Assembly (NCBI GenBank): GCA_017527155.1
Contig: JAFXQI010000060.1
Coordinates: forward strand, 1-64,000
Direction of reading: 5' to 3'
DNA: 64,000 nt
DNA from: Kiritimatiellia bacterium
GTDB lineage: Bacteria > Verrucomicrobiota > Kiritimatiellia > CAIQIC01 > Lenti-01
Numbering within the stretch: position 1 is the first letter of the stretch; the number at the start of each line of letters is the position of its first letter. The position numbers and the translations under genes were made by a program. A model generated the notes under the pieces. The model was not told where the DNA came from and searched no databases. It was given only the letters and a program-made list of their open reading frames with translations. Of the stretch, positions 18,144 through 52,762 are shown piece by piece.

Positions 18144-18704
18144 ATGACGAAACTGGACATCTGGAACCGGGCACTGGCGATGCTGCCGCACGACATTCCG
18201 GTGGGGACGGAGGAGGAAGATTCGACGGAGGCGCGCCGGTGCCGACAGAACTACGACTCGGCGCGGAAGGCGGTCCTGACGGCGCGGGAGTGGGGCTGGC
18301 TGGCGCGGGAGACGCCGGCGTGCTGCGGGGCGGCGCTCGGCGGCGGCGTATGGCTGCACGAGGCGCCGCCGGACGCGCTGCTGGTGCTGGGGCTGGTGGC
18401 GACCGACGGCCGGCGGATCAAGGCGCAGGCGGTCAACGGCGGGCTCCGCGCGCTGGAACCGTTCGCGGCCTGCCGGTATCTGCCGGACGAGGAGGACCCG
18501 GGTGCATGGCCGTTCGCGGTCCAGGAGGCCGTCGTGGCGGAGCTGGCGGCGCGAATCTGCCCGGTCCTGACGGACAACCCGCAGCGGACGCAGCAGCTCC
18601 GGTTGGACGCGCTGGCGCGCCTGGAGGAGGCCGGACGGCAGGATGCGCAGCGGACGGCCTACGGCGGCGGCGACCCGCTGGTTTTCGCTCACGCGAGGAG
18701 GTAG
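18144..18704 (+). CDS. Tail tubular protein A (T7 gp11-like)
   Basis: A 186-residue protein forming the adaptor ring between portal and nozzle in short-tailed phages. The start MTKLDIWNRALAMLP, the RRCRQNYDSARKAVL motif and the EWGWLARE motif match the gp11-type family pattern ('YD.AR...L....W.FA'). Length is normal for the family. The gene is followed after 3 bp by tail tubular protein B, the conserved pairing. Confidence 0.88.
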   Translation: MTKLDIWNRALAMLPHDIPVGTEEEDSTEARRCRQNYDSARKAVLTAREWGWLARETPACCGAALGGGVWLHEAPPDALLVLGLVATDGRRIKAQAVNGGLRALEPFAACRYLPDEEDPGAWPFAVQEAVVAELAARICPVLTDNPQRTQQLRLDALARLEEAGRQDAQRTAYGGGDPLVFAHARR

Positions 18705-24203: not shown

Positions 24204-27200
24204 ATGCCCTATTCCGCAACCTACAGGAGCCAGCTCCGCAGCGACATCACACGCGCACGGCGGCTCGGTCCGGACGCCACCGACAGCGAAGTCGAATGGG
24301 GTCTGGCGACGTTGTACGGCGGGATTTCCGGCCGCGACTTCCGCCTCCCGGAGGACATGCGCGCAGACCCGCGAGGTTCGCTGGCCAAGCTGCAGGAGGT
24401 GTACGACACGGGCTCGTTCGAGGCCATGCAGACGGACTCGCTCAAGCAGGTCAACGAGCTGTTGAAGAACAAGGACTGGCGGGCCCTCGCCGACATGGGA
24501 AAGAAGTCGGACACGATCTTCGACGATGGCTTCGACGCGAACCTGCTGGATGAAAGCGACCGATCCGAATGGCAGCGTCTGAACGACAAGGATGTCAAGT
24601 GGAAGCAGGAACGGGCCAGCGCGGCATACGTCGGGGCGAAGCCCCCGGACGGGCTATCCACGGAAGAGCAGCGCCGCCTTGGCGAACTCGTCGACGAGGC
24701 CAAGACCCGGACCGCCGCCATGCGGCAGGTTGAACGCGTGCGCCGGGAGAATGCGGCGGTCATGCTGCTCTCGATTTCTCCGGAGCTTACCGACCGGAGC
24801 CATGCCATCATCGAACGCGCCATCGCGAACAACTTCAGGATCACGGCCGAGGACCAGGATGCATTCCTGCCGGAGGAGATGGGCGGCCTGGACAGCGGGC
24901 AGAAGGAATTGCTTGCGGCCTACATGAATTACGTCCGGCCGACGGAAGGCAAGGGTGCCTGGGCAAAGTTCACGGGACGGATGCTGGACCAGACAGGGCA
25001 GGTCCTCGGAAGCACGGCGGACGACATCGCGGACCTCTGGAAGTTCGCAACGGATTCGTCGTACCGCAATGGCGGATACGATGCCGAGATTGAACGGCGG
25101 GCGTGGTTGGTGCAGGCAAACGCGAAGAAGTTCGCCGATCTCGGAGTCTGGGGCAACACCTTCGCGGAGGCCGGCGGAGTGATCGGGTACTGGGCCCCCA
25201 TGCTGTTCGAGACGGTGGCAACCGCCGGAATCGGGGACATCGGTGCCGCAGCCGGTGCCGCCAGGTTGGCCGCCAAGGCCGGAGCGGCCGGCCGGTTCGC
25301 TGGACGCCTTGCCACGTTGCCTGTGCGCAAGCTCTCCCATGTCATGTTCATGGCGGATTTCCGACAGCAGTTCCTGCAGCGCATAGCACTCGATGGAGGA
25401 GACCCGGCAAGCGCCGAGTCGCAGATTGCGGCCTCGGTCGGCGCGCTTGCCTCCGATCTCGTGGAACACATCCAATGGGGCAAGGCCTTCGGAAAAACCG
25501 CGATGCCCGAGGTCGTGTCCCAGGCTTACTCCAAGCTGACGCACGGCATCTTCGCAAAACTCGGCATCAAGGTCGGGAAAGAATTCGGCCAGATGACCCT
25601 CGGGAAGGCCGCCGCACAGGTGGTTGGAGAGCGCCTGGTTTCCATACCGACGGAGGCCATCGAGGAAGCGATCCAGCAGGCCATCGAGGAGGTCGTCGTG
25701 GACATTGGCGACGGACGCGGCATCCGCGGCATCCGCCTCGCCAACCTCATGGATCAGAGCGCAGAAGCCTTCGTCAAGACCATCGGCCCCATGGCATGGG
25801 TGTCACTGTCCGGTTTCCCGATGCGGGCGCGGAGCGCCTACACGATGCACAACCTCGACAAGGGAGCCATCGACCGCCTGCTTACGGCCGGGGAACGACT
25901 CAAGCGGGCTGCGGCTACCGGCCAGCTCGAGCTCAAGGGAGAAGACATGGGTGTGCTTGGACGCCTGATGCACATGACGGCACGGGCGGTAACGCCGGCC
26001 GAGGCGTACTGGTCGCTGCGGGAGCGCGGGTTCACGAAGGACCAGGCCGATTCCATGCTGAAGACGTTCGCGGCAATCCGGCGCTCGGCAATCGAACAGG
26101 GGCAGACGGGGGAACTGGGGGCGGCCATCCTGCAAGCGGGCGAGGAACTGGAACAGGGTGGATTCGAGTTGAAGAGGAATGCCGACGGCTCGAGCTCGTG
26201 GACGCGGGTCCAGACAGACGAGAACGGACATAAACGGCGGCAGACGTTGAAAATCGTGTGGGAGCCTTTCCAGGAACTGGACATGGATTCCCCGGCGCAG
26301 GTTGGGTCTGCGCTGGAGTACATTCGAGAGAATGAATCCGAACAAGGCAAGGAGGCATTGAAACTTCTGGGTCTGGACATCGCCCGCCCCAACGCCAAAA
26401 TCATGGCCGACGCGGCCGCGATGAACGCCCTCGGGATGTACGTCGCGGAGAACGAACTGGGCGACGTCGCGAATTCGCTGGCGACCGGGACGACGAAGTC
26501 GAAGGAGGCGGACGGGACGGAAATCGACGAGGACACGTACACGATCACGCTGACCGAGAAGGCGACGCGCGAGAGCATCTGGCACGAGGTCGGGCACGCG
26601 GCGGGATACGCGCTGCGGCGGATGGGGCTGTCGGAGGAGGAGATCGACGCCATCCAGAACTGGCGGAGCGGGGAGGACGGAAAGGCCCCAAGCGAGGCCG
26701 ACATGGCGCTCCCGGAACACGCCGGCGCGGGAGGAACGGAACTCTACGGGGAGGAGCGGGTCAACTACGAGCTCGCCGGCGAAATCGCCCGGAAGAATGA
26801 ACCCAAGAGTGCGTTCGCCAGGGGGCTGGAATACGTGGGCGACCTCGTCCGGAACGTCCTGCGGATCCGGAAGAAGGCGGAGGAGGTCGGCAACGCGGCC
26901 GCCATCATGACGGAACTCATCTGGCACGGGCACCTCGGGAAGCTCGACACCCTGAACGACGCCCAGAAGCGCGTCCTGCTCGAGGCCCGCCGCCGGCGGC
27001 AGGCCGCGGAAACCGGTGGCGAGGCCCCTCCGTCCCCGGAGGGACCAAGCTCTGCCGGAGAGGGACCAAGCTCCGCCGCGGAAGGGACCAAGCCCGCCAC
27101 GTCCGTCAGGCCGCCCGACGAGCGCACCGTCGCCAATTTCTGCTTCGACCGCCCCATCCTCCGCGACGACATGGCCAGGCTCTCCGCCAGCGGGGAACTC

Positions 27201-30200
27201 TCCGAGGACGACATCTTCGAGACCGGCTACCGGTGGAGTCCGTTCCTCCGCGCCTGGGTCGTGCAACCGGAGTTGAAGGGGCAGACGTTCACACCCAACG
27301 GCCGGTACATGGGGCTGGACGGGGAGTGGAAGGGGGAGGACGCGCGGGCGATGGTAGGGACATTTGCGGACGGAACGCATTTTGTCGAAGTCGATGACGT
27401 CCCGGATGAAATCCGAAATGAAACAGACCCAGACAAGCTGCGCACCAGCGTCAGGAATCTGATCCGAGAAAAATGGATGAACCGCATCATCGACCCGAAT
27501 GGGGTGCGCGTGTTTGTCAACGGGGCGACGGCACAAGAATACGTCCAGCCGGCAAAGGAGCTGGATGACAATGCCTTCCGGGCCAAGATGGATGCGGCTG
27601 GAAAACTTGACGAAGTAGTATCAACTTCCACCAATCCACAAAACGCACCAGATGGAAGGGATGGCCATGTCCACAAAAACGTCAAGGAGTGGGAATACCG
27701 GGATGCCATCTTCCACGTCAACGGGCGCTATTACGGAACTCTCGTAAACATTGCCGTCATAGAGACGGTCGGTGGTCGAAAGGGGAATTTCCGGAAGCTC
27801 CATGACATTACCCAAATAAAAGACATCACCGACGAAGTTCGGAATCTCCATGGAGACCCTGTTGGGGAACTCCAATCGTACCCATCTACCGTCGGTGACA
27901 ACGCGAATGAACCTCCAAACGCGCCCGGCGTCAACTCCGAAAATCAGGGGCGGTCGGAAGTCGGCTCCCGCCGCATGTATGCGGCGGCGCAGAACCTCCC
28001 GTCCCCGGAGTTCGCGATGGACGGGACCATCGTGGATGCGCTGCCGGCGCACCTGCGGGAGGACGCGCGCGCCATCGTCGCCGAGCGCGGCGGGACGGCC
28101 GCGTGGATGGTCGAGGCGGACGGGACGCCGACGGAACTCAACGAGAGGGAGTGGCTGCGGAGGGAGGCGGAGAGGCGGCACGTGGCGGGGCGGCGGTTCG
28201 CAATCGGAGGGCTGTACACCGGCAGCGCCGCCGACTACGCCCCGCGCGATGAGAACGGGAACATCGTGAACGGGCCGAGTCTGCTCAAGATTGGGAGCGG
28301 CGAGGGTAGCCAGGTCTATGGATGGGGACTGTACGCCAGCAACATGAGAGGAGTGGCGGAACAATATGCGCAATACGCTTCAGGGAAACACCCGGAAGGA
28401 GAACTCCTGGTTGACGGGAAACCCGTGAGAGGGAAGCTGTCCAAGGTTGTTGACGGGGTGCTGGTTGGGACCGTCAAGGGGGCCATACTGAACGCCGCCT
28501 CCTGGGTCGGGACACGGAACACAGACGGCATCGTGGAGTTTCTTGAAAATATACTTGCCGAATATGAATCCGTCGCCTCGACCGAAGGACGTCCGGAAGA
28601 GCACAGGGCACAAGCTCGGCTGAATGCAAGTTGCTACAGAGAGGCCATTGAACTAGTCAAGAGCGGCCGGGCGGTAGTCGGGGAGAATTGGCGTCCCCAC
28701 GTCTACGAGCAAACCTTCTTCACCGACCGTGCGACGCCGGAAGAGACGGAGCGGCACCTGCTCAAGTGGTACGAGGCGGTGCCAGACGAGCAGAAACAGT
28801 GGATTGCCGGACAACTGGAAAAGGAGAATCCAGGGAACAAGTTCCTTCTGGCGGCCGTGGAAGAGGCAAAGACGGGAGCGGAGCTTTACGAATTGCTTGC
28901 CGAGGAGTTGATTCCCGCCGAGCGATTCGTCCAAGAGAGGACGCAGCATGGGCGCGGAGCAAAATCCGGCGAGCAGGCCGCCAGCGAGTTCCTGGCCCGC
29001 GCGGGAATCGACGGCATCAAGTACCCCGTGAACAGCTACGGCAAGACGGTCAAGGACGGCGACGCCGCCGGCTGGAACTACGTCAGCTTCAGGGACGACA
29101 ACATCAAGGTTGACCACAAATGGGTAGACGGGGAACAGCGCTACCAGATTGCCGGAACGGAGGGGGCGGCGCGCCTCGGCATCCGGGGCCTGGGGGATGC
29201 AGAGGCCATGGAACGAAGCGGGGCCACGCGGGAGGAAATCTGGAGGGAAACAGGCTGGTGGAGGGGGGCGGATGAAAAGTGGCGGATAGACGCCCCGGTC
29301 AAGATGACGCAAGAGGAACGCACTGCAACGCCGCCATGGGAGACGGAGAACGTGGAGGAGGGGCGGCAGATTGTGCGGTTCCAGATCGGCGGGAAGGCAG
29401 AAGACGGAAAAACCACCGCCCAAGGGCCGCTATCGGAATCGGATCAAACTCCGCCGGTGCAGTTTAGCGGTGGTGCAACTTCAATCCCCTTGACACGCGA
29501 AAGTGCCGATCCGGTGATGAAATTCGCGGAAACCATAGTCATGGACGGCGCGAAAAGTCCAGAAGATTTTCTGGTCGGCATCTTCGGTGCGCTCGGTTCG
29601 CAGGAAACCAACCCCAACAAGACGCAATACTTCGACATCACCCAGCCCGACGGCCGGACCTTGTCCCTGCGGACGGCCAACCACCGCGCCACCGCCCACC
29701 AGTACACGGAACACGGCAACACGGCGGACGAAAAGCTGTCCGTCGTCGTGAAGATGAGCGAGAAGCCCTTCAAGAGCGACAAGGACGTGCAACTCACGGA
29801 ATTCGTCTATTTCCCCGACAAGCTGACCGCCGAAACGGAGGCGGGCATTGCAAAGGGACTTGCGGAGTGGATTCGCACCGGCAAGTACACGGGGCCGAAT
29901 GCCGACCAGGTGAATGTTTCCCCCAAACAGCGCGCCGGACAGGCGCGGCAGCAAGTCGGCGGGCGCATCCGGGAATACGACCATGAGCCGGTTTACAGCC
30001 CGCGGGGACAGCTGGCGGCGCTGGCGACGATGTACCTCATCCAGGGGAAGGAGCCGGACCGGGGGAACCTGCAGCAGATCAAGGAGCGGCTCGGGGAGCA
30101 GGGGGACCTGGACGCCATCATCGCGGAGGCGAAGGCGAAGCACGGGAGAATCCTCGAAGACCTGAAGGCGAAGGGCCGGAGGGCGAGCGCTGGCGAAATC

Positions 30201-33200
30201 GCGCGGGAAGCGGCGCGCCGGACGAAGGCGGCGCACCCGGAGGACCTGCTGGAGGAGGCGTACAAGCGCGGCGCGGCGGCCGGTACGTGGGCGCAGGGGG
30301 CACGCGGGGCGGTGCTGTCGACGCTGATCGGGGAGGCGAGGAGCGACAGCTACCACGACTTCGCGCTGGAGATGGGGCTGGACATCGCGGGCATCTACCA
30401 CCGGTTCGCGCTGCAGCAGGCGCGGAAGGAGGAGGCGGCCGGTCACGGGAAGGGCACGGAGTCGGAGGAGGAGGGGGCGGACCAGGCGCTCGAGAACGCG
30501 GTGGGCTTCGCGGAGGGCGCGCAGGGGCCGCTCGACCCGAACAGCGAGGCGGGACGGGCGCTCTCGGAGCTGGAAACGCGCCAGCAGGAGAACATCGAAC
30601 GGGCGCTCCGGGAGGCCGACATGGACTGGGAGGAGCGGAACCGCCTTCGGGAAGAGCGTCGGCAGCGGCGCCTGGAACGGGAGCGGGAGGCGGAAGCGGC
30701 CGGCGAAGGCTCCGGGGAGGGCGAAGGCGGCGGCGGGGAAGCGGTCGAGGACGTCCCGGAGGGGATGGACGAGAACGACCTGGCGGTGGACATCCTGGAG
30801 CGGAACCGGGTGGACATCCGGGATCCGTGGAAGTTCGCGCTCTTCCTGCGCAAGGCGATCCGGAACCGCATCCTGAAGGCGAACGGGCTGCCCGTGGACT
30901 TCGCCACGCTGGACGAGGCGCTGGCGGCCGAGGAACGGCTGTGGCAGAACCCGACGAACGTGGCGCAGTTCGCCAAGTCGATGGCCGCCATCCTCAAGGA
31001 CATGGCGGGCCGCCTGATGGACCACGCGGGGGAGACATACCCGGCGGTGCTGGTGAAGCTGGAACAGCTGGCCCGGATGCAGAACGTTGGGGCCATTGAG
31101 ACACAGGCGGCATTCGAGATCGCGACCATCGCGCGGCGGAGTATCCGGGAAACGAGCGCCAAGATGGTGAACGCCACGATCAAACGGCTGGACAAGAGCT
31201 ACATCGGCAAGCACCGGTTCGGGGAACACGACGAGCTGGAAGAGGACCTCAAGCGGAAGATCACGGGGCATGTCCGGCGGATGGCCATGTGGTGCAACAC
31301 GGTGCTGGGACTGTCGGAGGGGGGTGTCGAGCGGGAACGGGAGAATCTGCTGAATGCACGAAACGAACGAAGCCGGGCACTGAAAGAGGCAGAGGCCAAT
31401 GGCGCAATCGGCACCAAGGCCGAGGATGACGCTGTGTACGCGGAGACGCTCTGGAAGCTCAAGGTGTTGGAAACCTATGGCGGGACGCGCTACCTGCTGC
31501 CGGGGGAGGCCCGGGAGAAGCTGATGGAACTGGAACGCTGGATGGCCACCGAGAGCCTCAAGCAGGCCGCCAAGATCGAAATGACGAGCCGCCAGTACAA
31601 AAAGGACCGGGAAACCATCATCGAAGGATGTGCGGTCATCGATCCGAAGACGGGCCAGAAACGCGTCTGGGGAAAAGACACATGGGCCGACAAGGCTTGG
31701 CGGGCCATGGTCAACACCATCAACCAACGTCTTCGGTATCTGTTTGCCAGGGCAAGCGGAAAGTGGCGGACTTCCACGGACGAGCTCCTTTCGCGCGTCA
31801 GCCTCCTGATTTCGCAAGGGACGACGCAATCCATCATCGAAGAACAGGAATTGCGGCGCGCCCTTGTGTGTACGGTGCGGGAGGTCGTCGGGCCGCGCGG
31901 GGTCCGAAAATGGCTCAAGAGGATGCTCAAGGAAATACCGGAAGAACACTCCGTGGCGATTTCGAAACAGGGCCACCGGGACTTGCGATACGGCCAGGTG
32001 ATGCACCTGTACGGGTACCTGCGGCAGACGGCGACCTACGGGGACAATATCGCGAGGTACGGGCGCGTGGGCCAGCGGCAGTACATCGAAAAAAACATTC
32101 TCGCGGCGGAGGACATCAAAATCCTCAATGGAATGATGCGCATCTACGCGGAACAGCGGCCAAAGATTGACGCGGCAAGCCGGGACATCACGGGGTTCGA
32201 GATGAAGTCGCCGGACCCGTGGTACATGCCGGTCAAGATCAAGACGCCGACGCGGAGCGGGCTGGAGACGGTGGTCTCGACGGTGGAGGCAATGCCGGCC
32301 GTGTTCAGCGAACGCCGAAAGCACCAGATGGACGTGGACGAGACGGCCGACATCATGGAGGTTTACCACGACCGCATGAAGAAGACGGCACAAGTGTTGG
32401 GGCGGGGGCGCACCGGGCTGGACATCATCCACACGTTCGGCAACGCGGCGGTCAAGGATGCCATCACGGAAGCACGGGGTGAGGAGTTCACGAATGCGCT
32501 CATCGCGCACTTCACCGACTGGATGCACGGAGGACGGCCAAGGCTGGTCAATTCTTCGGGGGGAGATGCCGCATTCCTCAACGGGCTACGTACCGCGGCG
32601 GTCTACCAGGCGCTGTGGGGAAACTCCCTTTCGGCGTTCAAACAGACGCTTTCCGCGCCGGTGCTCAAGCTGGCGCGGAAAATCGGGGACCGTGGCATCT
32701 TCCAGGACATCGCGGGGCGATTCACCAAGGGCTGGAAACAGGCAAAGGTGGAGTTGACCCAGAGCGATGCATGGAAGGCGCGCTACGGCGACGTGGGCGT
32801 CATGCAGGAGACGCGCGAGGCCATGCTGGGGGCCGGTGAGGGGAGCATCTGGCAAGCGTTGCTCAGGGCCGGGATGGCACCGCTGCAATGGGGCGACCAA
32901 CGGCCGGCAATCATGTGCCAGGTGACGGAATACATGATCAAGCGCGACGAACTGATCGAGGGCGGCATGGAGCCGGAGGCGGCAAAGCGGCTCGCCGCCG
33001 ACATCGCCATGCAGGATGTCGAATGGACGCAGCAGAGCAGCCGTCCCGAAAACCTCCCCCAATACATGAGACGGGGCGACAGCCTGGTCCGGATGCTGAT
33101 GATGTTCGCCAGTTCCCCCATGCTTCAGGCTGGTTGGGAGATTCAACACTACATCGAGAAGCGCGAGAAACGGGAGGCTTTCGGCGAGAACTCCAAGGAG

Positions 33201-33632
33201 GCACGGGATGCCAACAAGAGCTTCTGGACCGCCATCATGATAAACCACGTCGTCATGCCCCTGGCGTTCCAGGTGGCCGGAATGATCTTCTACGGGGTCC
33301 TGGGCAAACGGGAGCCGGACAAGGACGACCTGAAGGAGTTGTTCTGGTCCATGTTCATCGGCCCGTTCGCGCGGCTGGCGTTCTGGGGAGGGACGCTCAA
33401 GGCCATCTATGACATATACACGGGGCGCGATCCGTTTGGGCGGCGTACAGATGCCGCCCCGTCCATGCTGGTCAACAACTCCCGCAACATCATGGACATC
33501 CTGGGAACCATTCCTTTTGATGCCATGACCGGCGACATGGACAAGGTGCTGGAGGATATCGACCGGTTCATGAAACGCAACGTTGCCCCGTACCGGCACG
33601 TCCGCATGATTCAGGACGCGTGGATGAAGTAA
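24204..33632 (+). CDS. Giant polyvalent ejection protein (3142 residues)
   Basis: Very large protein in the position of the T7 gp16-type internal virion protein. Visible parts: helical N-terminus; Ala/Gly-rich hydrophobic region (about 320-400); HEVGH zinc-metallopeptidase motif (about 794-798, WHEVGHAAGYAL); an LPD3-like segment (about 1123-1190, EYRDAIFHVNGRYYGTLVNI); an ART-like polyvalent domain (about 1336-1660, GSGEGSQVYGWGLYAS near 1370 and GIDGIKYPVNSYGK toward the end); a RelE/barnase-like segment (about 1766-1860, LRTANHRATAHQY); charged coiled coils (about 2130-2220); and a C-terminal LPD38-like region (about 2665-2980, DVEWTQQSSRPENLPQYMR) with membrane segments. Polyvalent proteins are thought to travel into the cell with phage DNA and counter host defences. 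Domain names other than HEVGH are by pattern only. Confidence 0.75.
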   Translation: MPYSATYRSQLRSDITRARRLGPDATDSEVEWGLATLYGGISGRDFRLPEDMRADPRGSLAKLQEVYDTGSFEAMQTDSLKQVNELLKNKDWRALADMGKKSDTIFDDGFDANLLDESDRSEWQRLNDKDVKWKQERASAAYVGAKPPDGLSTEEQRRLGELVDEAKTRTAAMRQVERVRRENAAVMLLSISPELTDRSHAIIERAIANNFRITAEDQDAFLPEEMGGLDSGQKELLAAYMNYVRPTEGKGAWAKFTGRMLDQTGQVLGSTADDIADLWKFATDSSYRNGGYDAEIERRAWLVQANAKKFADLGVWGNTFAEAGGVIGYWAPMLFETVATAGIGDIGAAAGAARLAAKAGAAGRFAGRLATLPVRKLSHVMFMADFRQQFLQRIALDGGDPASAESQIAASVGALASDLVEHIQWGKAFGKTAMPEVVSQAYSKLTHGIFAKLGIKVGKEFGQMTLGKAAAQVVGERLVSIPTEAIEEAIQQAIEEVVVDIGDGRGIRGIRLANLMDQSAEAFVKTIGPMAWVSLSGFPMRARSAYTMHNLDKGAIDRLLTAGERLKRAAATGQLELKGEDMGVLGRLMHMTARAVTPAEAYWSLRERGFTKDQADSMLKTFAAIRRSAIEQGQTGELGAAILQAGEELEQGGFELKRNADGSSSWTRVQTDENGHKRRQTLKIVWEPFQELDMDSPAQVGSALEYIRENESEQGKEALKLLGLDIARPNAKIMADAAAMNALGMYVAENELGDVANSLATGTTKSKEADGTEIDEDTYTITLTEKATRESIWHEVGHAAGYALRRMGLSEEEIDAIQNWRSGEDGKAPSEADMALPEHAGAGGTELYGEERVNYELAGEIARKNEPKSAFARGLEYVGDLVRNVLRIRKKAEEVGNAAAIMTELIWHGHLGKLDTLNDAQKRVLLEARRRRQAAETGGEAPPSPEGPSSAGEGPSSAAEGTKPATSVRPPDERTVANFCFDRPILRDDMARLSASGELSEDDIFETGYRWSPFLRAWVVQPELKGQTFTPNGRYMGLDGEWKGEDARAMVGTFADGTHFVEVDDVPDEIRNETDPDKLRTSVRNLIREKWMNRIIDPNGVRVFVNGATAQEYVQPAKELDDNAFRAKMDAAGKLDEVVSTSTNPQNAPDGRDGHVHKNVKEWEYRDAIFHVNGRYYGTLVNIAVIETVGGRKGNFRKLHDITQIKDITDEVRNLHGDPVGELQSYPSTVGDNANEPPNAPGVNSENQGRSEVGSRRMYAAAQNLPSPEFAMDGTIVDALPAHLREDARAIVAERGGTAAWMVEADGTPTELNEREWLRREAERRHVAGRRFAIGGLYTGSAADYAPRDENGNIVNGPSLLKIGSGEGSQVYGWGLYASNMRGVAEQYAQYASGKHPEGELLVDGKPVRGKLSKVVDGVLVGTVKGAILNAASWVGTRNTDGIVEFLENILAEYESVASTEGRPEEHRAQARLNASCYREAIELVKSGRAVVGENWRPHVYEQTFFTDRATPEETERHLLKWYEAVPDEQKQWIAGQLEKENPGNKFLLAAVEEAKTGAELYELLAEELIPAERFVQERTQHGRGAKSGEQAASEFLARAGIDGIKYPVNSYGKTVKDGDAAGWNYVSFRDDNIKVDHKWVDGEQRYQIAGTEGAARLGIRGLGDAEAMERSGATREEIWRETGWWRGADEKWRIDAPVKMTQEERTATPPWETENVEEGRQIVRFQIGGKAEDGKTTAQGPLSESDQTPPVQFSGGATSIPLTRESADPVMKFAETIVMDGAKSPEDFLVGIFGALGSQETNPNKTQYFDITQPDGRTLSLRTANHRATAHQYTEHGNTADEKLSVVVKMSEKPFKSDKDVQLTEFVYFPDKLTAETEAGIAKGLAEWIRTGKYTGPNADQVNVSPKQRAGQARQQVGGRIREYDHEPVYSPRGQLAALATMYLIQGKEPDRGNLQQIKERLGEQGDLDAIIAEAKAKHGRILEDLKAKGRRASAGEIAREAARRTKAAHPEDLLEEAYKRGAAAGTWAQGARGAVLSTLIGEARSDSYHDFALEMGLDIAGIYHRFALQQARKEEAAGHGKGTESEEEGADQALENAVGFAEGAQGPLDPNSEAGRALSELETRQQENIERALREADMDWEERNRLREERRQRRLEREREAEAAGEGSGEGEGGGGEAVEDVPEGMDENDLAVDILERNRVDIRDPWKFALFLRKAIRNRILKANGLPVDFATLDEALAAEERLWQNPTNVAQFAKSMAAILKDMAGRLMDHAGETYPAVLVKLEQLARMQNVGAIETQAAFEIATIARRSIRETSAKMVNATIKRLDKSYIGKHRFGEHDELEEDLKRKITGHVRRMAMWCNTVLGLSEGGVERERENLLNARNERSRALKEAEANGAIGTKAEDDAVYAETLWKLKVLETYGGTRYLLPGEAREKLMELERWMATESLKQAAKIEMTSRQYKKDRETIIEGCAVIDPKTGQKRVWGKDTWADKAWRAMVNTINQRLRYLFARASGKWRTSTDELLSRVSLLISQGTTQSIIEEQELRRALVCTVREVVGPRGVRKWLKRMLKEIPEEHSVAISKQGHRDLRYGQVMHLYGYLRQTATYGDNIARYGRVGQRQYIEKNILAAEDIKILNGMMRIYAEQRPKIDAASRDITGFEMKSPDPWYMPVKIKTPTRSGLETVVSTVEAMPAVFSERRKHQMDVDETADIMEVYHDRMKKTAQVLGRGRTGLDIIHTFGNAAVKDAITEARGEEFTNALIAHFTDWMHGGRPRLVNSSGGDAAFLNGLRTAAVYQALWGNSLSAFKQTLSAPVLKLARKIGDRGIFQDIAGRFTKGWKQAKVELTQSDAWKARYGDVGVMQETREAMLGAGEGSIWQALLRAGMAPLQWGDQRPAIMCQVTEYMIKRDELIEGGMEPEAAKRLAADIAMQDVEWTQQSSRPENLPQYMRRGDSLVRMLMMFASSPMLQAGWEIQHYIEKREKREAFGENSKEARDANKSFWTAIMINHVVMPLAFQVAGMIFYGVLGKREPDKDDLKELFWSMFIGPFARLAFWGGTLKAIYDIYTGRDPFGRRTDAAPSMLVNNSRNIMDILGTIPFDAMTGDMDKVLEDIDRFMKRNVAPYRHVRMIQDAWMK

Positions 33633-33658
33633 CGCAGGACAACGCAGGAGAAAATGAC

Positions 33659-34036
33659 ATGACGAAGATTTCGGATAAAAGAATCGCCGCGGCGTTGAAG
33701 GAGGCGCAGGGAGTGGTGGCGGATGCGGCCGACAAGCTCGGGGTTCCCCGGCACACCGTGGAAAGGCGCATCAAGGCCGGTGGCATCGTTGGCAGGACCT
33801 TCGACGAGGCCCGGGAAACCATCCTGGACACGGCGGAAGCGGAACTCGGAAAGGCGGTCTCCAAAGGGGAGCCGTGGGCCATCCGGTACTTTCTCGACAA
33901 CCGGGGTGCCGACCGTGGATACGGGAAGCGCGAAACGCTCACGGTCAAGGCGGGCATCGACCTCCATGCCAAGATCGACGAGAGCGTGGGAGAAGAAATC
34001 CTGGAACGCCTGAAGCGCGGGGTGGCAGATGCATAG
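33659..34036 (+). CDS. Small-terminase-like protein (paralogue of the 50208-50615 gene)
   Basis: A 125-residue protein. The N-terminal helix-turn-helix (ADAADKLGVPRHTVERRIKA) is followed by EARETILDTAEAELGKAV, EPWAIRYFLDNRGADRGYG and EEILERLKRG. The same sequence of motifs occurs in the TerS gene beside TerL, so the two are clear paralogues. ATG 33659, after GCAGGAG, is preferred; a GTG at 33620 would overlap the previous gene. Small terminases recognise the packaging site on phage DNA. Whether this copy is a second TerS or a regulator is unknown. Confidence 0.75.
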   Translation: MTKISDKRIAAALKEAQGVVADAADKLGVPRHTVERRIKAGGIVGRTFDEARETILDTAEAELGKAVSKGEPWAIRYFLDNRGADRGYGKRETLTVKAGIDLHAKIDESVGEEILERLKRGVADA

Positions 34037-36999: not shown

Positions 37000-37479
37000 T
37001 TACCAGTTCTGGGGCCGCCATGTGCCCGGCTTCAGTGGCTCATACGGAGGCTGGTCGGCGGGCGGATTCTTGTCGGTGGCGCTTGGCGTGCCGGACGCCG
37101 CCGGAGGAGGCGTTGGGGAGCCTTTCACCGCCTCTTGCAAAGCTTTTGTTCCATCAATTATTTTTCCAAGCGCCTCGTTTACCTTGTCAAGTTTGAGGCG
37201 TGCAACAAGCGCAGTTTGTTTCCAGGTGTCGGAATTGCCGTCTTCTCCATTCGGATTATCGGAAAGACCCAACAGCCAATCTGAACTTACACCGAACTGT
37301 GTTGCAATGGTGTATATGGCCTCGGCATTTGGCGCATGAATTCCCTTTACATATCTGTCAACAGAAGCCTGTTTTAACCCAGCTTTACGCGCAAAAGCGC
37401 TTACAGATTCTTTTCCAATAAGAGTTTTCAAACGAGAAGAGAATACCCTGGAAATATCTTCTCCTTTTCGTGTTGACAT
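37000..37479 (-). CDS. CI-like phage repressor
   Basis: A 159-residue protein. An XRE helix-turn-helix (SVSAFARKAGLKQASVDRYV with NAEAIYTIATQFGVSSDWLL) fills residues 20-80. The C-terminal part is a helical segment then a Pro-rich tail, with no LexA-type Ser/Lys peptidase, so RecA-stimulated self-cleavage is not expected. ATG 37479 is chosen for its AAAGGAG ribosome site; an upstream ATG at 37506 is weaker. It is transcribed divergently from the Cro-like gene and should hold the lysogenic state. Confidence 0.78.
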   Translation of the reverse strand: MSTRKGEDISRVFSSRLKTLIGKESVSAFARKAGLKQASVDRYVKGIHAPNAEAIYTIATQFGVSSDWLLGLSDNPNGEDGNSDTWKQTALVARLKLDKVNEALGKIIDGTKALQEAVKGSPTPPPAASGTPSATDKNPPADQPPYEPLKPGTWRPQNW

Positions 37480-37566
37480 TTCTACTCCTTTTCGTATAGT
37501 CGGCATCGTTGTTAGCCCTAACGGGGCGCATTCATAACAAGAAAACCTAACGGAGGCGAGAATCAA
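37480..37566. promoter_or_regulatory. Lysogeny switch: divergent promoter/operator region
   Basis: The 87-bp spacer between repressor and Cro-like gene holds a perfect inverted repeat GTTAGCCCTAAC at 37511-37522. A direct repeat of its right half, CCTAACGG, lies at 37517-37524 and again at 37545-37552. These are the natural candidates for repressor/Cro binding. The second copy overlaps the approach to the Cro-like ribosome site (CGGAGGCG). Binding has not been shown. Confidence 0.6.
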
Positions 37567-37773
37567 ATGGAGACGAAGAAGAAAGCGGCGGCACAGATAC
37601 GGGTGCAGGCATCGATGCGATGCAGCGGGGTGGCGGTGGTGGCGAGGCGGATCGGATGCCACCCGTCGCAACTGAGCTACATCCTGCACGGGAAGCGGAA
37701 GCCGAGCAAAACCATCCGCCGCCGCCTCGAGCGAATGGGGATCACCACCACCATCGACGGGGAGATGTTGTGA
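37567..37773 (+). CDS. Cro-like small DNA-binding protein
   Basis: A 68-residue basic protein. Residues 20-60 form a helix-turn-helix (SGVAVVARRIGCHPSQLSYI, then LHGKRKPSKTIRRRLERMGI). As the first gene opposite the repressor it fits a Cro/CII-type early regulator. A similar small protein is encoded at 42894-43088. The stop overlaps the next start (TGATG). Confidence 0.7.
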   Translation: METKKKAAAQIRVQASMRCSGVAVVARRIGCHPSQLSYILHGKRKPSKTIRRRLERMGITTTIDGEML

Positions 37774-41832: not shown

Positions 41833-42045
41833 ATGACGACTGTTGAACGCCAAGTCCGCGAGAAGATCCGCGAGGAATCCAGCCTGCCCCCGAGAGACAG
41901 GACACAGCCCGTCCCGTGCGCATTCTGCGCGCGGGGCGGAAACGGGGACCGTACCTGTTCCGGCGGATGGGAGGAGCGGAAGTACTCGAAGTACAAGGGG
42001 TGCTTCGCCGGGACGCTGATTGAGGAGGAGACCGCCCATGGCTGA
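41833..42045 (+). CDS. Small Cys-containing protein
   Basis: A 70-residue protein. After a charged N-terminal helix it has CAFCARGGNGDRTCSGGW and a further Cys in YKGCF, so four Cys could bind zinc. The end overlaps the exonuclease start by 8 bp. The family is not recognised. Confidence 0.6.
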   Translation: MTTVERQVREKIREESSLPPRDRTQPVPCAFCARGGNGDRTCSGGWEERKYSKYKGCFAGTLIEEETAHG

Positions 42046-42877
42046 ACTGAGCGCACCGAAGGTCCGCGAGGGGACCGCCGGCCACTGGTACACCATCGAC
42101 GGGGCGCCCGCCTACGAGGTGTGCAAGAAGGACGGGACGGGCAAACGCCCGACGACGCTGCGGGACGCAAGGGCGCTGGGGTTGCTCCCCAGCGTCACCG
42201 GCGTCCTCGGCATCCTGGACAAGCCGCAGTTGGTGATGTGGAAGCAGAAGCAGGCGATCCTGGCCGCCCGCGAGGTGGCGATGGCCGAGGGGGAGGACCT
42301 GGACTCCTGGACGGACCGGGTCCTCGCCAAGGCCGCGGAGCCGGTCGCCGAAGCCGCCGACCTCGGCAGCCGCATCCACGGCGCCATCGAGACGGCCTGC
42401 GCCGGTGGGCGGTGGGACCAGAAGGCACTCGGGCCGTACGTGCAGCCCATCCTCAACTGGATTCTCGGCAAGCTGGCGGCAGGCGGGAAGATCGTCGCCC
42501 AGGAGGACATCGTGGTCAACCGGACGGACGGCTATGCCGGACGCCTGGACATCGCCATCAAGACGTCAGACCGCCTGGTCTGGTTCATCGACTGGAAGAG
42601 CCGGAAGACCCGCCCGAGCGCCAGCGACCGGGAGGCCTTCGCCCCGTACCCCACCCAGCGGCTCCAGCTGGCGGCCTACGCCGCCATCTGGGCAAACGAG
42701 ATGGGCCTGGGCTGGCAAGCCGTCCGCTGCGCCAACGTCATGACCTCCAGCACCGAGCCGGGCCGCTGGTGCGTGGCCGAACACAAAGACCCGGAGGGCG
42801 CCTACGGGGCCTTCCGGGCCGTCCTCGACATCTGGCGCTGGAACAAGGCCTACGACCCCCGCGGCCGCACCCACTGA
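42038..42877 (+). CDS. PD-(D/E)XK exonuclease (RecB/Cas4-like)
   Basis: A 279-residue nuclease. The motifs follow the expected order: SVTGVLGILDKP at the N-terminus, DLGSRIHGAIETAC (motif I region), GRLDIAIK with Asp171, WFIDWKSRK with Asp185 and Lys187 (the D-xK catalytic pair), and QLAAYA from Gln210 (motif III). Such nucleases generate single-stranded ends for phage recombination and appear beside SSB and DUF1351 genes, as here. Confidence 0.78.
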   Translation: MAELSAPKVREGTAGHWYTIDGAPAYEVCKKDGTGKRPTTLRDARALGLLPSVTGVLGILDKPQLVMWKQKQAILAAREVAMAEGEDLDSWTDRVLAKAAEPVAEAADLGSRIHGAIETACAGGRWDQKALGPYVQPILNWILGKLAAGGKIVAQEDIVVNRTDGYAGRLDIAIKTSDRLVWFIDWKSRKTRPSASDREAFAPYPTQRLQLAAYAAIWANEMGLGWQAVRCANVMTSSTEPGRWCVAEHKDPEGAYGAFRAVLDIWRWNKAYDPRGRTH

Positions 42878-42893
42878 CACGAAAGGAGACACC

Positions 42894-43088
42894 ATGCGAC
42901 TGAAGACCAAAACCACCTACCGCATCGAGGAAATCGACGCACTGGCCAAGAAAGTCAACCGCAGCCCCTACCACATCCGGGCCGTCCTCAACGGGCGACG
43001 CGCCCCCGGACCGGAGCTGGCCGCCGAACTCAAACGGCTGGGCATCAAAACCCGTAGGCTCCGCCCGGCTCGCGAAAGGTGGGTGTGA
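42894..43088 (+). CDS. Small helix-turn-helix protein
   Basis: A 64-residue basic protein. KTTYRIEEIDALAKKVNRSP, then IRAVLNGRRAPGPELAAEL and LGIKTRR, match the layout of the Cro-like protein at 37567, with a helix-turn-helix and a short C-terminal strand. It starts after GAAAGGAGAC and lies 1 bp before the replication-organiser gene. It may regulate that gene. Confidence 0.6.
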   Translation: MRLKTKTTYRIEEIDALAKKVNRSPYHIRAVLNGRRAPGPELAAELKRLGIKTRRLRPARERWV

Positions 43089-43089
43089 G

Positions 43090-43920
43090 ATGGGCGTGCT
43101 GCTGACGCCGGAACGGGTTCTGGCCGAAATCGGCGAGGATGAGGAGAACGGGGCGGACGCCGAGACGATCCTCAAGCGGATCAAGCGTGTGTGCCGGTCG
43201 GTCCTCCGCAAGCGGATGGGGGAGGACGAATGGGCGGACGAGATGCTCGCGGAGTCCGAAGACTACAAGCGGGTGGCCGCCGGGAGGAAGGCCGCAAACG
43301 CCCGCTGGAAGAAGAACGAATGCGATTCGCAATCGCATGATGCGCCCGCACAATCGCATGATGCGATTCCACAATCGCATGATGCGACGCGCAAATCGCA
43401 TGATGCGCCGCATGATGCGCCCGCACAATCGCATGATGCGACCGCCATGCCTCGCGCGCGCGCGCGCCGACCTACCGACCTACCGACCTACAGACCTATA
43501 TCACCGACCGACCCGATCGCGCGCGGGCGCGCGCGAGAGGACGGTCCGTCGGGGTCGGTGGTCGGTGATGTTCCATCCGAGGTCGGAGTCGGGTCGGAGT
43601 CGGACGGAGCCGCGGGGGCCCCGGCGCCGACCGACGACGCCTACTCCGAAATCGGGGGCACGCCGGACGAGCGGCTGCCGGACCTGGCCGTGGTGTTCTG
43701 CCGGGAATCCGATCCGACGAGGGCGCTGAACGAGTACCGCAAGGCCATGAAGGAGATGGAGCCGTGGCGCTTCCGGATTATCCTGGACAAGTTCGTTGGG
43801 GACTGCAAGGAGGACGAGCCGAGGAGCCGGGGGAAGGTCTTCATGAGCCGGATCATGGAAACCCTCAAGGAGCTGAGGGACCGGAGGAGGCAGGAGAATG
43901 CCCTGGCCGTTCCCAAGTAG
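43090..43920 (+). CDS. Replication-organiser-like protein with internal iterons
   Basis: A 276-residue protein. The N-terminal 75 residues are helical and charged and end in VAAGRKAANARWKKN, a junction seen in DUF1376/YdaU-type replisome organisers. A low-complexity SHDA(P/T)xQ repeat region follows (about 77-117), encoded by DNA repeats, then an Arg/Pro/Asp-rich linker. A C-terminal helical domain (about 205-276, ALNEYRKAMKEMEPWRFRII) completes it. The layout resembles lambda O-type initiators, which carry the origin inside their own gene. The family assignment is tentative. Confidence 0.55.
   Translation: MGVLLTPERVLAEIGEDEENGADAETILKRIKRVCRSVLRKRMGEDEWADEMLAESEDYKRVAAGRKAANARWKKNECDSQSHDAPAQSHDAIPQSHDATRKSHDAPHDAPAQSHDATAMPRARARRPTDLPTYRPISPTDPIARGRAREDGPSGSVVGDVPSEVGVGSESDGAAGAPAPTDDAYSEIGGTPDERLPDLAVVFCRESDPTRALNEYRKAMKEMEPWRFRIILDKFVGDCKEDEPRSRGKVFMSRIMETLKELRDRRRQENALAVPK
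43332..43440 (+). other. Iteron array, candidate phage replication origin
   Basis: ATCGCATGATGCG occurs at 43332, 43353, 43374, 43395 and 43428, with a shorter copy CGCATGATGCG at 43409. The first four are exactly 21 bp apart (two helical turns) and the last is in phase with the shortened copy. Each unit is an interrupted palindrome (ATCGCAT-G-ATGCG). The array lies within the replication-organiser-like gene. Downstream lie (CG)n tracts and four tandem 8-bp CCGACCTA repeats (43467-43498). Confidence 0.65.
43467..43498 (+). repeat. Tandem 8-bp repeat CCGACCTA
   Basis: Three exact and one imperfect copy (CAGACCTA) stand in tandem, framed by alternating CG tracts (43452-43466 and 43515-43536). 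The 8-bp unit does not keep the reading frame, so its conservation would be for DNA and not for protein. Confidence 0.75.
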
Positions 43921-43938
43921 CCGCACGGGAGCCGCCCG

Positions 43939-44175
43939 ATGACCACGCCATGGCACGACACGAGCGCATGCCGCCTCTGCGGCCGCCCCATCGGGTGGGT
44001 CCGGAAGCTGGACGGGCGGCGCAAGCCCTTCGACCTCGAGCCGGACGGGAGCCTCTCGAATACCAGCCACTTCCTCACCTGCACGGTCTACCGCCAGCGC
44101 TGCGCCGACCGCGACGCCGCCGCCAGGCGCAAGCGCGAGGCCGAGGAAGAGCGCCGCCAGGGGAGGCTGTTCTGA
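43939..44175 (+). CDS. Small zinc-ribbon-like protein
   Basis: A 78-residue protein. CRLCGRPIGWVRKLDGRRKP then FDLEPDGS and HFLTC supply a C-x2-C plus His/Cys set that is common in small phage and bacterial zinc proteins. The tail is Arg/Glu-rich and helical. Its stop overlaps the RusA start. Confidence 0.65.
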   Translation: MTTPWHDTSACRLCGRPIGWVRKLDGRRKPFDLEPDGSLSNTSHFLTCTVYRQRCADRDAAARRKREAEEERRQGRLF

Positions 44176-44684
44176 TGGCCACAACCGAACGCCAGCCGGA
44201 CCTGACCTTCCGCATCCGCGGGATCCCGCCGCGCAGGACGGCGCAGCAGAAGGGGTACGTCCGCGACCCGAGCGCTCCCGGCGGGGTGCGGGTCTTCACC
44301 CGCGCCGCCAACCGCCGGGAGGCCGCCGAGATGCTCCTCGAGTTCCGCCGGCAGCTCCCCGAGGGGTGGAAGCCCCGCGGCGGCGCCGCACGGGTGCGCG
44401 TGGATTTGTCCTACCCGGCCCGCAAGACCGACCGCCTCTCCCCCGAGGACTACCTCCCCCACACCGAGCGCCCCGACGCCGACAACCTCGTCAAACCGAT
44501 CCTCGACGCCATGACCCGCGCCGGCGTCTGGCAGGACGACGCCCAGGTCTGGGTCGTCACCGTCTCCAAGGTCCGCAGGCTCGTCCCCAGGTGGACCGTC
44601 CGCGTCTGGTTCGACGGCAGGCCAGAGGCCCGCAACCCGGAGGTGCGGCAGGGGACGCTCGCGCTCGGAGGGGAGGGAACGTGA
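44175..44684 (+). CDS. rusA: RusA-family Holliday junction resolvase
   Basis: A 169-residue protein. The conserved core RPDADNLVKPILDAMTRAGV, followed by WQDDAQV, carries the Asp residues of the RusA active site near residues 100-120. N- and C-terminal beta strands surround it. RusA-type enzymes resolve four-way junctions formed during phage replication and packaging. The gene overlaps the next by 4 bp (GTGA). The family is clear. Confidence 0.88.
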   Translation: MATTERQPDLTFRIRGIPPRRTAQQKGYVRDPSAPGGVRVFTRAANRREAAEMLLEFRRQLPEGWKPRGGAARVRVDLSYPARKTDRLSPEDYLPHTERPDADNLVKPILDAMTRAGVWQDDAQVWVVTVSKVRRLVPRWTVRVWFDGRPEARNPEVRQGTLALGGEGT

Positions 44685-47697: not shown

Positions 47698-47870
47698 GAT
47701 GGAGACTGCGGTTGCTGCTCGCCTGGGCCTTCTGGTCGCTGTGGATTGTGGAAGAAAACCGCCTTGCCGCCGCCGAGCGGCGTGCGAAGGACGCGGAAGA
47801 GTTGGCCGTCGCCGTCGCGGCCGAAGCCGAAGAGTGGATGGAAAGGAGCTGTCATGAGCGAACGAACTGA
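47694..47870 (+). CDS. Small membrane-anchored helical protein
   Basis: A 58-residue protein. An N-terminal hydrophobic helix (LRLLLAWAFWSLWIV) is followed by an Ala/Glu-rich amphipathic helix (NRLAAAERRAKDAEELAVAV). It overlaps the preceding methyltransferase by 4 bp and the following one by 17 bp. It is not recognised. Confidence 0.5.
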   Translation: MRWRLRLLLAWAFWSLWIVEENRLAAAERRAKDAEELAVAVAAEAEEWMERSCHERTN

Positions 47871-49296
47871 CAAAACTGACACGATGGCCGTGCGCGGAGG
47901 CGCCGGCAAGGTACGAGAATTCACGGTGGAGTGGTGGCCGGTCGGCAAGCCCAAGCCCTACTACCGCAACCCCAGGAACAACGACGAAGCGGTGCCCGTC
48001 GTCGCGGAGAGCATCCGTCGCCACGGCTGGCAGGCGCCCATCGTGGTGGACGAGGATGGCGTGATCATCGCGGGGCACACGCGGCTCAAGGCGGCCATCG
48101 CGCTTGGCGAGGCCGAGGTGCCGGTCAAGGTGGCCCGCGGCCTCACCCCGGCGCAGGTCAAGTCGCTGCGCCTGGTGGACAACCGCAGCAGCGAGATCGC
48201 CACCTGGGACGAGGAGGCCCTCCGCCTCGAGATCGAGGAAATCTACCGCCTCGGCGACGACCTCGACGGCCTGCGCCTCGGCGAGGACGACCTCCTCGAG
48301 ATGCTCGGCGCCTCCGAGACCCCCGAAAAGGCCGCCGCCAAGACCGACGCCGAACTCGAGGAGGTGCCCGACGTCCCCGGCAAGCCCGCCAGCCGTCCGG
48401 GCGCCATCTACCTCCTCGGCCGCCACCGGCTCCTCTGCGGCGACGCCACCGCCCCCGACGCGATGGCCCGCCTCATGGCCGGCAAGCCCGCCGACCTGCT
48501 CCTCACCGATCCGCCGTACAACGTCGACTACGGCGACCGCAACCAGGCGCTCAACGCCAACGACAAGGGCAACCGCGTCGACCGCAAAATCCTCAACGAC
48601 AACATGGCCTCCGCCGAGTTCCGGCACTTCCTCGACAGGGCCTTCCGCGCGGCGGCCGGCGTCCTCAAGCCCGGCGGCGCGTTCTACGTCTTCTACGCCA
48701 GCAAGGAGGTCGTGAACTTCACCGAGGCCGCCAACGCCGCCGGCCTCGCCGTCAAGCAGCAGCTCTGCTGGCGCAAGAACTGCGCAACCCTGGGGCGCCA
48801 GGATTACCAGTGGGAGCACGAGCCGTTCCTCTACGGCTGGAAGGACGGCGCCGCCCACGCCTTCCACGCCGACCGCAAGCAGACGACCGTCCTCGACGTC
48901 TTCGGCGACCACATCGTCATGGACGGCAAGCGCGCCATCGTCACACTCGGCGGCGTCACCTACTCCCTCGACCCCAAGGCCGTCCTGGTCCGCGAGCCCA
49001 CCGACATGGTCTTCTGCCCCAAGCCCCAGCGCTCCGAGCTCCACCCCACCATGAAGCCTCCCGCCCTCTGGCGCTACCTCCTCGAGAACAGCTCCGACTT
49101 CGGCGACGTCGTCCTCGACCCCTTCGGCGGCTCCGGAACCACCATCGTCATGGCCGAGGCCACCGGACGCGCCGCCCGATCCGCCGAACTCGACCCCCAC
49201 TACTGCGACGTCATCCGCAAGCTCTGGGCCGACTTCGCCGTCGGCAAGGACGCCGACTGGCAGGCCGCCACGCCGGAGGAGGGAGGAGAGGGATGA
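47854..49296 (+). CDS. ParB-domain/DNA methyltransferase fusion
   Basis: A 480-residue protein. Residues 20-130 form a ParB/Srx-type domain (NPRNNDEAVPVVAESIRRHG, then DGVIIAGHTRLKAAIALGE). The methyltransferase domain has motif IV DPPYNVDYGDR at Asp220 and motif I DPFGGSGTTIVMAE at Asp422, the order of beta-class N6-adenine/N4-cytosine enzymes. It also has HPTMKPPALW. Such fusions are common in phages and probably modify phage DNA at specific sites. ATG 47854 is used; ATG 47884 is possible. Confidence 0.85.
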   Translation: MSERTDKTDTMAVRGGAGKVREFTVEWWPVGKPKPYYRNPRNNDEAVPVVAESIRRHGWQAPIVVDEDGVIIAGHTRLKAAIALGEAEVPVKVARGLTPAQVKSLRLVDNRSSEIATWDEEALRLEIEEIYRLGDDLDGLRLGEDDLLEMLGASETPEKAAAKTDAELEEVPDVPGKPASRPGAIYLLGRHRLLCGDATAPDAMARLMAGKPADLLLTDPPYNVDYGDRNQALNANDKGNRVDRKILNDNMASAEFRHFLDRAFRAAAGVLKPGGAFYVFYASKEVVNFTEAANAAGLAVKQQLCWRKNCATLGRQDYQWEHEPFLYGWKDGAAHAFHADRKQTTVLDVFGDHIVMDGKRAIVTLGGVTYSLDPKAVLVREPTDMVFCPKPQRSELHPTMKPPALWRYLLENSSDFGDVVLDPFGGSGTTIVMAEATGRAARSAELDPHYCDVIRKLWADFAVGKDADWQAATPEEGGEG

Positions 49297-49529: not shown

Positions 49530-50205
49530 CGTCCCCGACACCCTCGACCCCTTCGAGGAAATCGACCCCTGGGCGGACGACGACGATACCGACCGCCGGG
49601 ACGCCGCCGGCAAGGCCGATGCCGCCGACAACGCCGACGAGGAAGAGGCCACAGCCCAGCCCGTGGTGCTGGCCACGGCGAACCGGCACGTGGTGCGCCG
49701 CGTCATGGGCGAGCGGCTGCTCGAGGACGCCATGCCGGCCGACACCCCGGCAGACGGCGAGAGCTGGCACATCCTGACCTTCGGCGGCATCGCCAGCACC
49801 TCCCTGCTGATCTGGCTGGCGCACCGCCAGCGGCTCCGGAGGCTCGCCCTCGCCACCTGGAGCGTCAACGGGACCGACGTGGCCGAACTCCGGCGCCTCG
49901 TCCGCCTCTGCCGCGTCGAACGCCTCGACGTCTTCTGCGGATCCCTCGCCGAACGCCGCACCCCGCAGGCCTGGCTCGCACTCAAGGAAACCTGCCGCGC
50001 CACCGGCGGACGCGCCGTCCTGATGCGCAACCACGCCAAGGTCGTCGCCTTCCGGGGAGAAGCCTGGGACGGCGCCATCGAGGGCAGCGCCAACCTCGCC
50101 AACAACTCCGGATGCGAACAGATCGTCTTGACGCGGGACGCCCGGCTTGCACAATTCTACCTCGACACATTCGACCGCATCAGGAGCATGGGCAGCGAGG
50201 TCTAG
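49522..50205 (+). CDS. PLD-like phosphodiesterase-fold protein beside the terminase
   Basis: A 227-residue protein (ATG 49522). A disordered acidic lead of about 50 residues precedes an alpha-beta domain (WHILTFGGIASTSLLIWLAH, then LALATWSVN). Near residue 171 it has NHAKVVAF followed by GAIEGSANLANNSGCEQIVL. The H-x-K plus GSxN pair is the hallmark of the phospholipase D/nuclease superfamily, here as one half-site per chain. It lies 2 bp before TerS. A role in genome maturation is possible but inferred. Confidence 0.68.
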   Translation: MSDVPDTLDPFEEIDPWADDDDTDRRDAAGKADAADNADEEEATAQPVVLATANRHVVRRVMGERLLEDAMPADTPADGESWHILTFGGIASTSLLIWLAHRQRLRRLALATWSVNGTDVAELRRLVRLCRVERLDVFCGSLAERRTPQAWLALKETCRATGGRAVLMRNHAKVVAFRGEAWDGAIEGSANLANNSGCEQIVLTRDARLAQFYLDTFDRIRSMGSEV

Positions 50206-50207
50206 GC

Positions 50208-50615
50208 ATGGGACGGCAAGGAAAAATCAACAAATCCACCGAAGAACTCGCCGAACTCCTCAAGAAGGCGTTCGGCAACGTCAGCGCCGTCGCCCGCGAA
50301 CTCCACGTCACCCGACAGAGCCTCTGGGCGCGCATCAACAAAAGCAAATCCCTCCAGGACGCCATCGAAGAAGCCCGCGAGACCATCGTCGACATCGCCG
50401 AAAGCAAACTCTTCAAGGCCGTCGGCGCCGGCATGGAGTGGGCCGTCAAGCGCGTCCTCGACAGCAAGCGCGGCCAGGACCGCGGCTGGCGCCCGCCCAT
50501 GCAAATCCAGGTCGACGGCCGCCACGAGGTCAAGGTCGCCCGCCTCGATGAAGCCGTCGGCGCCGAAATCCTCGCACGCCTCAAACCCCGTGACGCCGAC
50601 ACGCCGGCGCCGTAG
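50208..50615 (+). CDS. terS: Terminase small subunit
   Basis: A 135-residue protein. A helix-turn-helix (AFGNVSAVARELHVTRQSLW) lies near residues 22-45, followed by EARETIVDIAESKLFKAV and EWAVKRVLDSKRGQDRGW. It sits directly upstream of TerL with a one-base overlap, the standard pairing. It recognises the packaging site and regulates the motor. It is a paralogue of the protein at 33659-34036. Confidence 0.8.
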   Translation: MGRQGKINKSTEELAELLKKAFGNVSAVARELHVTRQSLWARINKSKSLQDAIEEARETIVDIAESKLFKAVGAGMEWAVKRVLDSKRGQDRGWRPPMQIQVDGRHEVKVARLDEAVGAEILARLKPRDADTPAP

Positions 50616-52475: not shown

Positions 52476-52580
52476 CGAAAACAATTGTCGGAAATTGCCG
52501 TAATGGTCTGGCAATCCTTCTTCTCGCTTGAGTCGTTGTCCCCTTTGTCCCTTTTGTTGCCCGAAAACGGACCGAAAATT

Positions 52581-52682
52581 TTTTCCAATCATTGGAAAAC
52601 GCGCGAAAAATTTTTCCAATCATTGGAAAAATCCGGCCATTTTTTCCAACCATTGGAAAAATATTTTCCAATCATTGGAAAA
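52581..52682. repeat. Four-unit palindrome array, TTTTCCAATCATTGGAAAA family
   Basis: Perfect or near-perfect 19-bp palindromes lie at 52581-52599, 52612-52630, 52642-52660 (one changed base pair, CCAACCATTGG) and 52664-52682. The first three with their spacers match the array at 184-254. Any transcript would form consecutive hairpins. Confidence 0.85.
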
Positions 52683-52762
52683 CGGCCGTTTCCCCGGTGA
52701 GCTACCAGATTGGCCAAAACCCGGAGGCTTGAAGCGGGGTGGGGGAGGGGCGGAGAGAGCGA

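Follow-up and report, generated by a model that had tools for sequence, protein, structure and literature searches.

A candidate replication origin of helically phased iterons within a putative initiator gene of a Kiritimatiellia prophage

In phage lambda (gene O, ori-lambda), as in the Stx phages and in gene 18 of P22, inverted-repeat iterons lie in the middle of the initiator gene and are followed by a low-stability tract. The AT-rich region beside the lambda iterons is needed for unwinding (PMC7466680). Gene 38 of the Bacillus phage SPP1 holds oriL, with direct repeats and an AT-rich unwinding element (PMC6316719), and the record of the Rep gene of Lactococcus phage Tuc2009 carries the note 'contains origin of replication'. 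Here we describe a locus of comparable layout. The window, i.e. the whole stretch of 64,000 nucleotides that was analysed, spans positions 1-64000 of contig 35 in an assembly of 3.23 Mb and contains a prophage. The densest repeat cluster within this 64-kb window lies inside the ORF 43090-43920 (plus strand), and it is very probably the replication origin of the prophage, lying within the gene that encodes the prophage's initiator. Two features of the intragenic-origin class, iterons within a coding sequence and an easily melted tract adjoining them, are found here.

The array opens with an inverted half-site pair, ATGCGATT-CGC-AATCGCAT (43320-43338), which places its start one base earlier than the 43321 of the preliminary description. 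Five full iteron units, ATCGCATGATGCG, start at 43332, 43353, 43374, 43395 and 43428, and a shortened copy, CGCATGATGCG, starts at 43409. The spacings are 21, 21, 21, 12 and 21 bp in order, all multiples of three, and the exact 21-bp spacing reported before for the first four units was recovered. The symmetric core is TCGCAT-G-ATGCGA, a dyad with an odd centre. On the plus strand, the cores are at 43333-43345 (iteron 1, TCGCATGATGCGC), 43354-43366 (iteron 2), 43375-43387 (iteron 3), 43396-43408 (iteron 4), 43409-43419 (the shortened iteron 5, 12 bp from iteron 4) and 43429-43441 (iteron 6). This dyad is perfect in three units (43354, 43375 and 43429), while one end base is missing in two (43333 and 43396). 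In the whole 3.23-Mb genome, TCGCATGATGCG occurs in five copies, all within the array. Four 8-bp repeats follow on the plus strand (43467-43498), three CCGACCTA at 43467, 43475 and 43483 and one CAGACCTA at 43491. They fall in frames 2, 1, 0 and 2. Both the CG tracts and the frame-ignoring repeats announced in the preliminary description were found. The 8-bp repeats are enclosed by the CG tracts (43451-43467 on the left, 43521-43537 on the right), the two 17-nt arms of an inverted repeat (94%) between which a stem could form. In single-stranded form, the tract gives a better fold than 200 shuffled versions (z -2.9); this is a property of the sequence and does not show that a cruciform exists in vivo.

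This array is explained by neither chance nor codon bias. With synonymous codons permuted within the gene (1,000 permutations), short-range 9-mer repeats covered 76 bases on average and 136 at most, versus 212 observed. Ten odd dyads were counted versus a null mean of 2.8, and none of the 1,000 permutations had as many; the period-8 tandem run of 17 was likewise equalled in none. More lenient counts, with even CG-tract dyads included, were reached in 0-11 of 5,000 permutations. The same scripts gave the same repeat signature for three positive controls whose records annotate iterons or an origin within the gene, namely lambda O, P22 gene 18 and Tuc2009 Rep.

The gene encodes a protein of 276 aa. 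Its description as initiator-like draws on domain sharing and on the array rather than on a direct family match. The AlphaFold model was built with a nine-row alignment and replaced a poor single-sequence model. It predicts a helical N-terminal domain (aa 7-82), a disordered linker (about 83-181) and a helical C-terminal domain (184-273), with pLDDT values of about 75 and about 40 for the first two and mostly 92-97 for the blocks of the third. The iterons and the short repeats are all encoded in the linker or immediately before it. The window protein has no Pfam match, no PHROG match below 0.1 and, for its model, no significant Foldseek match in PDB or BFVD. Its N-terminal domain matches no recognised DNA-binding fold in Pfam or by Foldseek against PDB and BFVD, and an O-type (HTH_36-like) winged helix was not found there, as Pfam gave no match, PHROG gave none below 0.1 and this part is modelled as helical. 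DUF1376 (PF07120) does not match the window protein, and its paralogue L002 scores 13 bits versus a cut-off of 30.1. By profile comparison, the C-terminal domain matches L019 (search E 2.6e-4; hhalign probability 74%), a protein whose N-terminus is clearly of the O-like initiator type (phrog_1032 E 8e-18, HTH_36). The N-terminal domain is common to the window protein, L005 and L006 (hhalign 94.5%). The window protein is best read as a putative initiator outside the existing family libraries.

Close relatives of the window gene were absent from the phages, viral contigs, plasmids and genome contigs searched. Distant relatives sharing the N- or C-terminal domain were gathered by searching 346 genomes of the same class with profiles, and 13 genes were compared: that of the window, 11 loci from genomes and one from a Flavobacterium phage (L010), the latter a weak tblastn relative (E 3e-3). 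The paralogue L002 (42% identity) is located in the same genome on contig 100 (15892-16689); it lies downstream of an integrase gene and differs in its iterons. This element and the window prophage thus bring two distinct candidate origin sequences into one cell. In all 13 genes, iterons specific to the gene lie between the two terminal domains, in most cases with gene-specific short repeats after them, and no iteron sequence or linker peptide is shared between genes. For instance, the linker of L002 contains six ATGC cores 10-11 bp apart and then CACCGACA repeats, that of the homologue L004 GATACG dyads and then GATAAGAC, that of L005 AAGCA-C-TGCTT and then ATACAGGC, and that of L029 GCAAACG every 11 bp and then ACAAGT/GAGCAA. 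Palindromic iterons are not general, the arrays of several relatives being plain direct repeats, and no clear short tandem repeat was identified in L026 and L027. Among the 12 relatives, 11 have a content in 9-mer repeats that no more than 2 of 1,000 synonymous-codon permutations reached; L006 is the exception. The C-terminal relative L018 has no convincing array, with irregular CACCCGTC copies only, and L024 was set aside because it has no clear full-length gene. On the contig of the L004 homologue, tandem repeats around CGCGTTGCCCCCCACCTG were also seen at 14171-14320 (L009). Taken together, these comparisons suggest inheritance of the layout rather than of the sequence, and this would account for the failure of similarity searches to find such origins.

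Nearest-neighbour profiles and a shuffle position test point to 43469-43508, the least stable 40 bp of the gene, as a candidate unwinding element. With 55% GC versus 66% for the whole gene, this segment is AT-rich in relative terms only. The minimum falls on the 8-bp repeats, 27 nt past the last iteron; in the lambda control it falls 3 nt past the last iteron, on the AT-rich region. The instability of the segment is within the range of the codon-permuted genes, yet a minimum just 3' of the iterons was obtained in only 1 of 500 permutations. Across the 13 genes, the stability minimum is located 0-80 nt 3' of the iterons in nine (about 0.11 expected for each, p about 1e-6) and elsewhere in L002, L010, L027 and L029. 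The most frequent spacing of each gene tends to lie close to an integral number of helical turns (Rayleigh p about 1e-3). Both p-values are limited by the picking of iteron cores and array ends by eye and by the genes not being independent. Of 57 spacings, 31 are not divisible by three. Helical spacing that is so often off the codon frame indicates that the constraint acts on DNA. For the window itself, where every iteron spacing is a multiple of three, the argument from reading frame depends on the 8-bp repeats and the relatives.

This last point bears on whether the SHDAxxQ peptide repeats could be the object of selection, the DNA repeats merely following. The in-frame peptide repeats and the window spacings in multiples of three are what such selection would give. 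However, the codons used throughout are rare ones: the HDA triplets are written CAT GAT GCG in 6 of 6 cases and serine is TCG in all five full units, while in the neighbouring prophage genes GAT represents 15% of the Asp codons and TCG 13% of the Ser codons. Moreover, the 8-bp repeats rotate through the three frames, the relatives have quite different linker peptides and out-of-frame iteron spacings of 10, 11, 20 and 22 bp, and the linker is predicted to be disordered. We regard selection on the peptide as extremely improbable, and the proposal that the peptide is a by-product of DNA constraint is supported by the rare codons, the frame-rotating repeats and the relatives' differing linkers. 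A disordered linker also accepts repeats readily, and the array includes an exact 33-nt duplication (43334-43366 and 43409-43441), as would be expected if the repeats were neutral tandem duplications that the linker tolerates. Against this, none of the 13 core columns varies between the iteron units whereas all eight spacer columns do (p = 5e-6), dyads and helical spacing are unexpected from neutral duplication, and arrays of unrelated sequence occur at the same position of the gene in 12 relatives. Neutral duplication is in our opinion very improbable. The reading of the array as an origin within its gene, put forward in the preliminary description, is supported by the layout of the relatives, by the often off-frame helical spacing and by the signature of the three control phages.

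The surrounding genes are those of a prophage and include one for a head-tail adaptor (at 5021), those for tail proteins (at 18144 and 18708) and one for the large terminase (at 50615). A repressor gene (37003-37689, minus strand) and a Cro-like gene at 37567 are present. A PD-(D/E)XK exonuclease gene (42020-42877, plus strand; PF12705, phrog_298) shows 64% identity to the L004 gene, and the initiator is followed by a RusA resolvase gene (44175-44684, plus strand; PF05866 E 2.6e-16). The order repressor, Cro-like, exonuclease, initiator and RusA is typical of a lambdoid early operon. L004, from a genome of the same family, has the same neighbours, with the exonuclease upstream of the initiator, a similar RusA gene downstream (ORF list) and terminase genes nearby. 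The exonuclease does not predict an array: a synteny search found exonuclease-bearing prophages of other families with no comparable array in the stretches read, and two of these loci, L053 and L059, encode DNA polymerase-like proteins as judged by eye. No helicase, P-like loader or DnaB-type gene was recognised near the initiator, the downstream genes tested being those for RusA, a ParB-like methyltransferase, an endonuclease and terminase. No DnaA box within one mismatch occurs in 42801-44009. The GC-skew plot, proposed earlier as a check, gave no support, as the skew does not change sign at 43.4 kb and is negative only from near 47.5 kb.

Directly upstream of the initiator, a gene for a small HTH protein of 64 aa (42894-43088, plus strand; phrog_3642 E 2e-4), a possible regulator, ends one base ahead of the initiator gene. 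The array could therefore be a regulatory or DNA-partition binding site, for example for this HTH protein, and not an origin; odd-centred dyads are indeed typical operator shapes. However, the array is located within a coding gene, and its iteron is found nowhere else in the genome. The ORF lists for L002 and L004 show no HTH gene beside initiators that nevertheless have repeats, the repeats of many relatives are direct and non-palindromic, and most relatives have a low-stability tract beside their repeats. A regulatory or partition site is thus unlikely, and a replication origin within the initiator gene is the reading that we retain.

Several other observations concern the window. The ORF 47746-49293 encodes a DNA methyltransferase fused to a ParB-like N-terminus, and a single ORF of 3,142 aa occupies 24204-33632 in the late region. 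Two small ORFs, 33620-34036 and 50112-50615, resemble each other on visual inspection; the latter, located ahead of the large terminase gene, would encode the small terminase subunit, and the former may be its paralogue. The genes for the head-tail adaptor and the large terminase, usually neighbours, are found at the left and right ends, respectively, of the element 4568-52123. Clustered palindromes containing TTTCCAATCATTGGAAA are present at 52576-52690 and 216-232 of the window. This motif occurs 227 times in the genome, versus 0 for the reversed control, mostly in small clusters with spacings of e.g. 31, 52 and 83 bp, and it looks like a genome-wide palindromic repeat family.

A plausible sequence of events can be proposed for the origin. 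Several copies of the 43090-43920 protein would bind the odd-centred dyads TCGCAT-G-ATGCGA, which, being two helical turns apart, would load the proteins on one face of the DNA. The resulting complex would strain the adjacent low-stability 8-bp repeat tract (43467-43508) and cause its melting. The C-terminal domain would then recruit the host replicative helicase, either directly or via a host loader, and theta replication would start. Host proteins are proposed here because no phage loader gene was seen. The repeats and their spacing, the conserved layout with sequence turnover, the stability minimum and the domain layout are observations, from which we infer binding, melting, helicase recruitment and origin activity at the array. 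That the DNA constraint sits in the disordered linker would be due to the fact that such a linker tolerates almost any sequence. Tentatively, and with some doubt, the linkers of phage initiators could be seen as a fast-evolving origin cassette between varied N- and C-terminal domains, in which the phasing and the melting tract are kept and the iterons change with each initiator. The window prophage and the contig 100 paralogue would then have mutually distinct origins, and the window initiator would bind via a helical domain absent from solved structures. This work locates a testable candidate origin in a prophage with a putative initiator that matches none of the family libraries. A simple route for finding origins also follows from it: the linkers of candidate initiators can be scanned for repeats with helical spacing that ignore the reading frame and go beyond a synonymous-codon null.

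The parallel with lambda O/ori drawn in the preliminary description is one of function and not of protein family. The lambda iterons are spaced by 20, 24 and 23 bp, near two turns as in the window, and both phages have a repressor/cro-type early operon. Unlike lambda, the window has neither a recognised O-type winged helix nor an adjacent P-like loader or DnaB gene, its iteron sequence is different and its tract has 55% GC. Since searches for a winged-helix N-terminus and for a loader gene among the genes tested gave nothing, we do not assign the protein to the O family. In Tuc2009 Rep, iteron-like CAACCAAATG copies are followed by a frame-ignoring 5-bp tandem repeat in the gene, and recombination and RusA genes are nearby, as in the window; this phage differs by its DnaD-like protein, unrelated repeats and AT-rich genome. 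SPP1 oriL is similar as an origin in an initiator gene, a likeness taken from publication and not from sequence, but SPP1 encodes the loader gp39 and the helicase gp40, and none is recognised at the window. The 'replication protein' of Flavobacterium phage elemo (MT497067, L010), with a C-terminal domain weakly related to that of L005, has TCGCATAGCGATAAAAA iterons 20 bp apart and then 6-bp repeats in its linker, like the window; it differs by a DUF6291 N-terminus, an AT-rich genome and an adjoining primase/helicase gene. Intragenic iteron origins are already known; the window case is best read as one more of these, with a putative initiator that belongs to no recognised family and with relatives that show a wider turnover of sequence.
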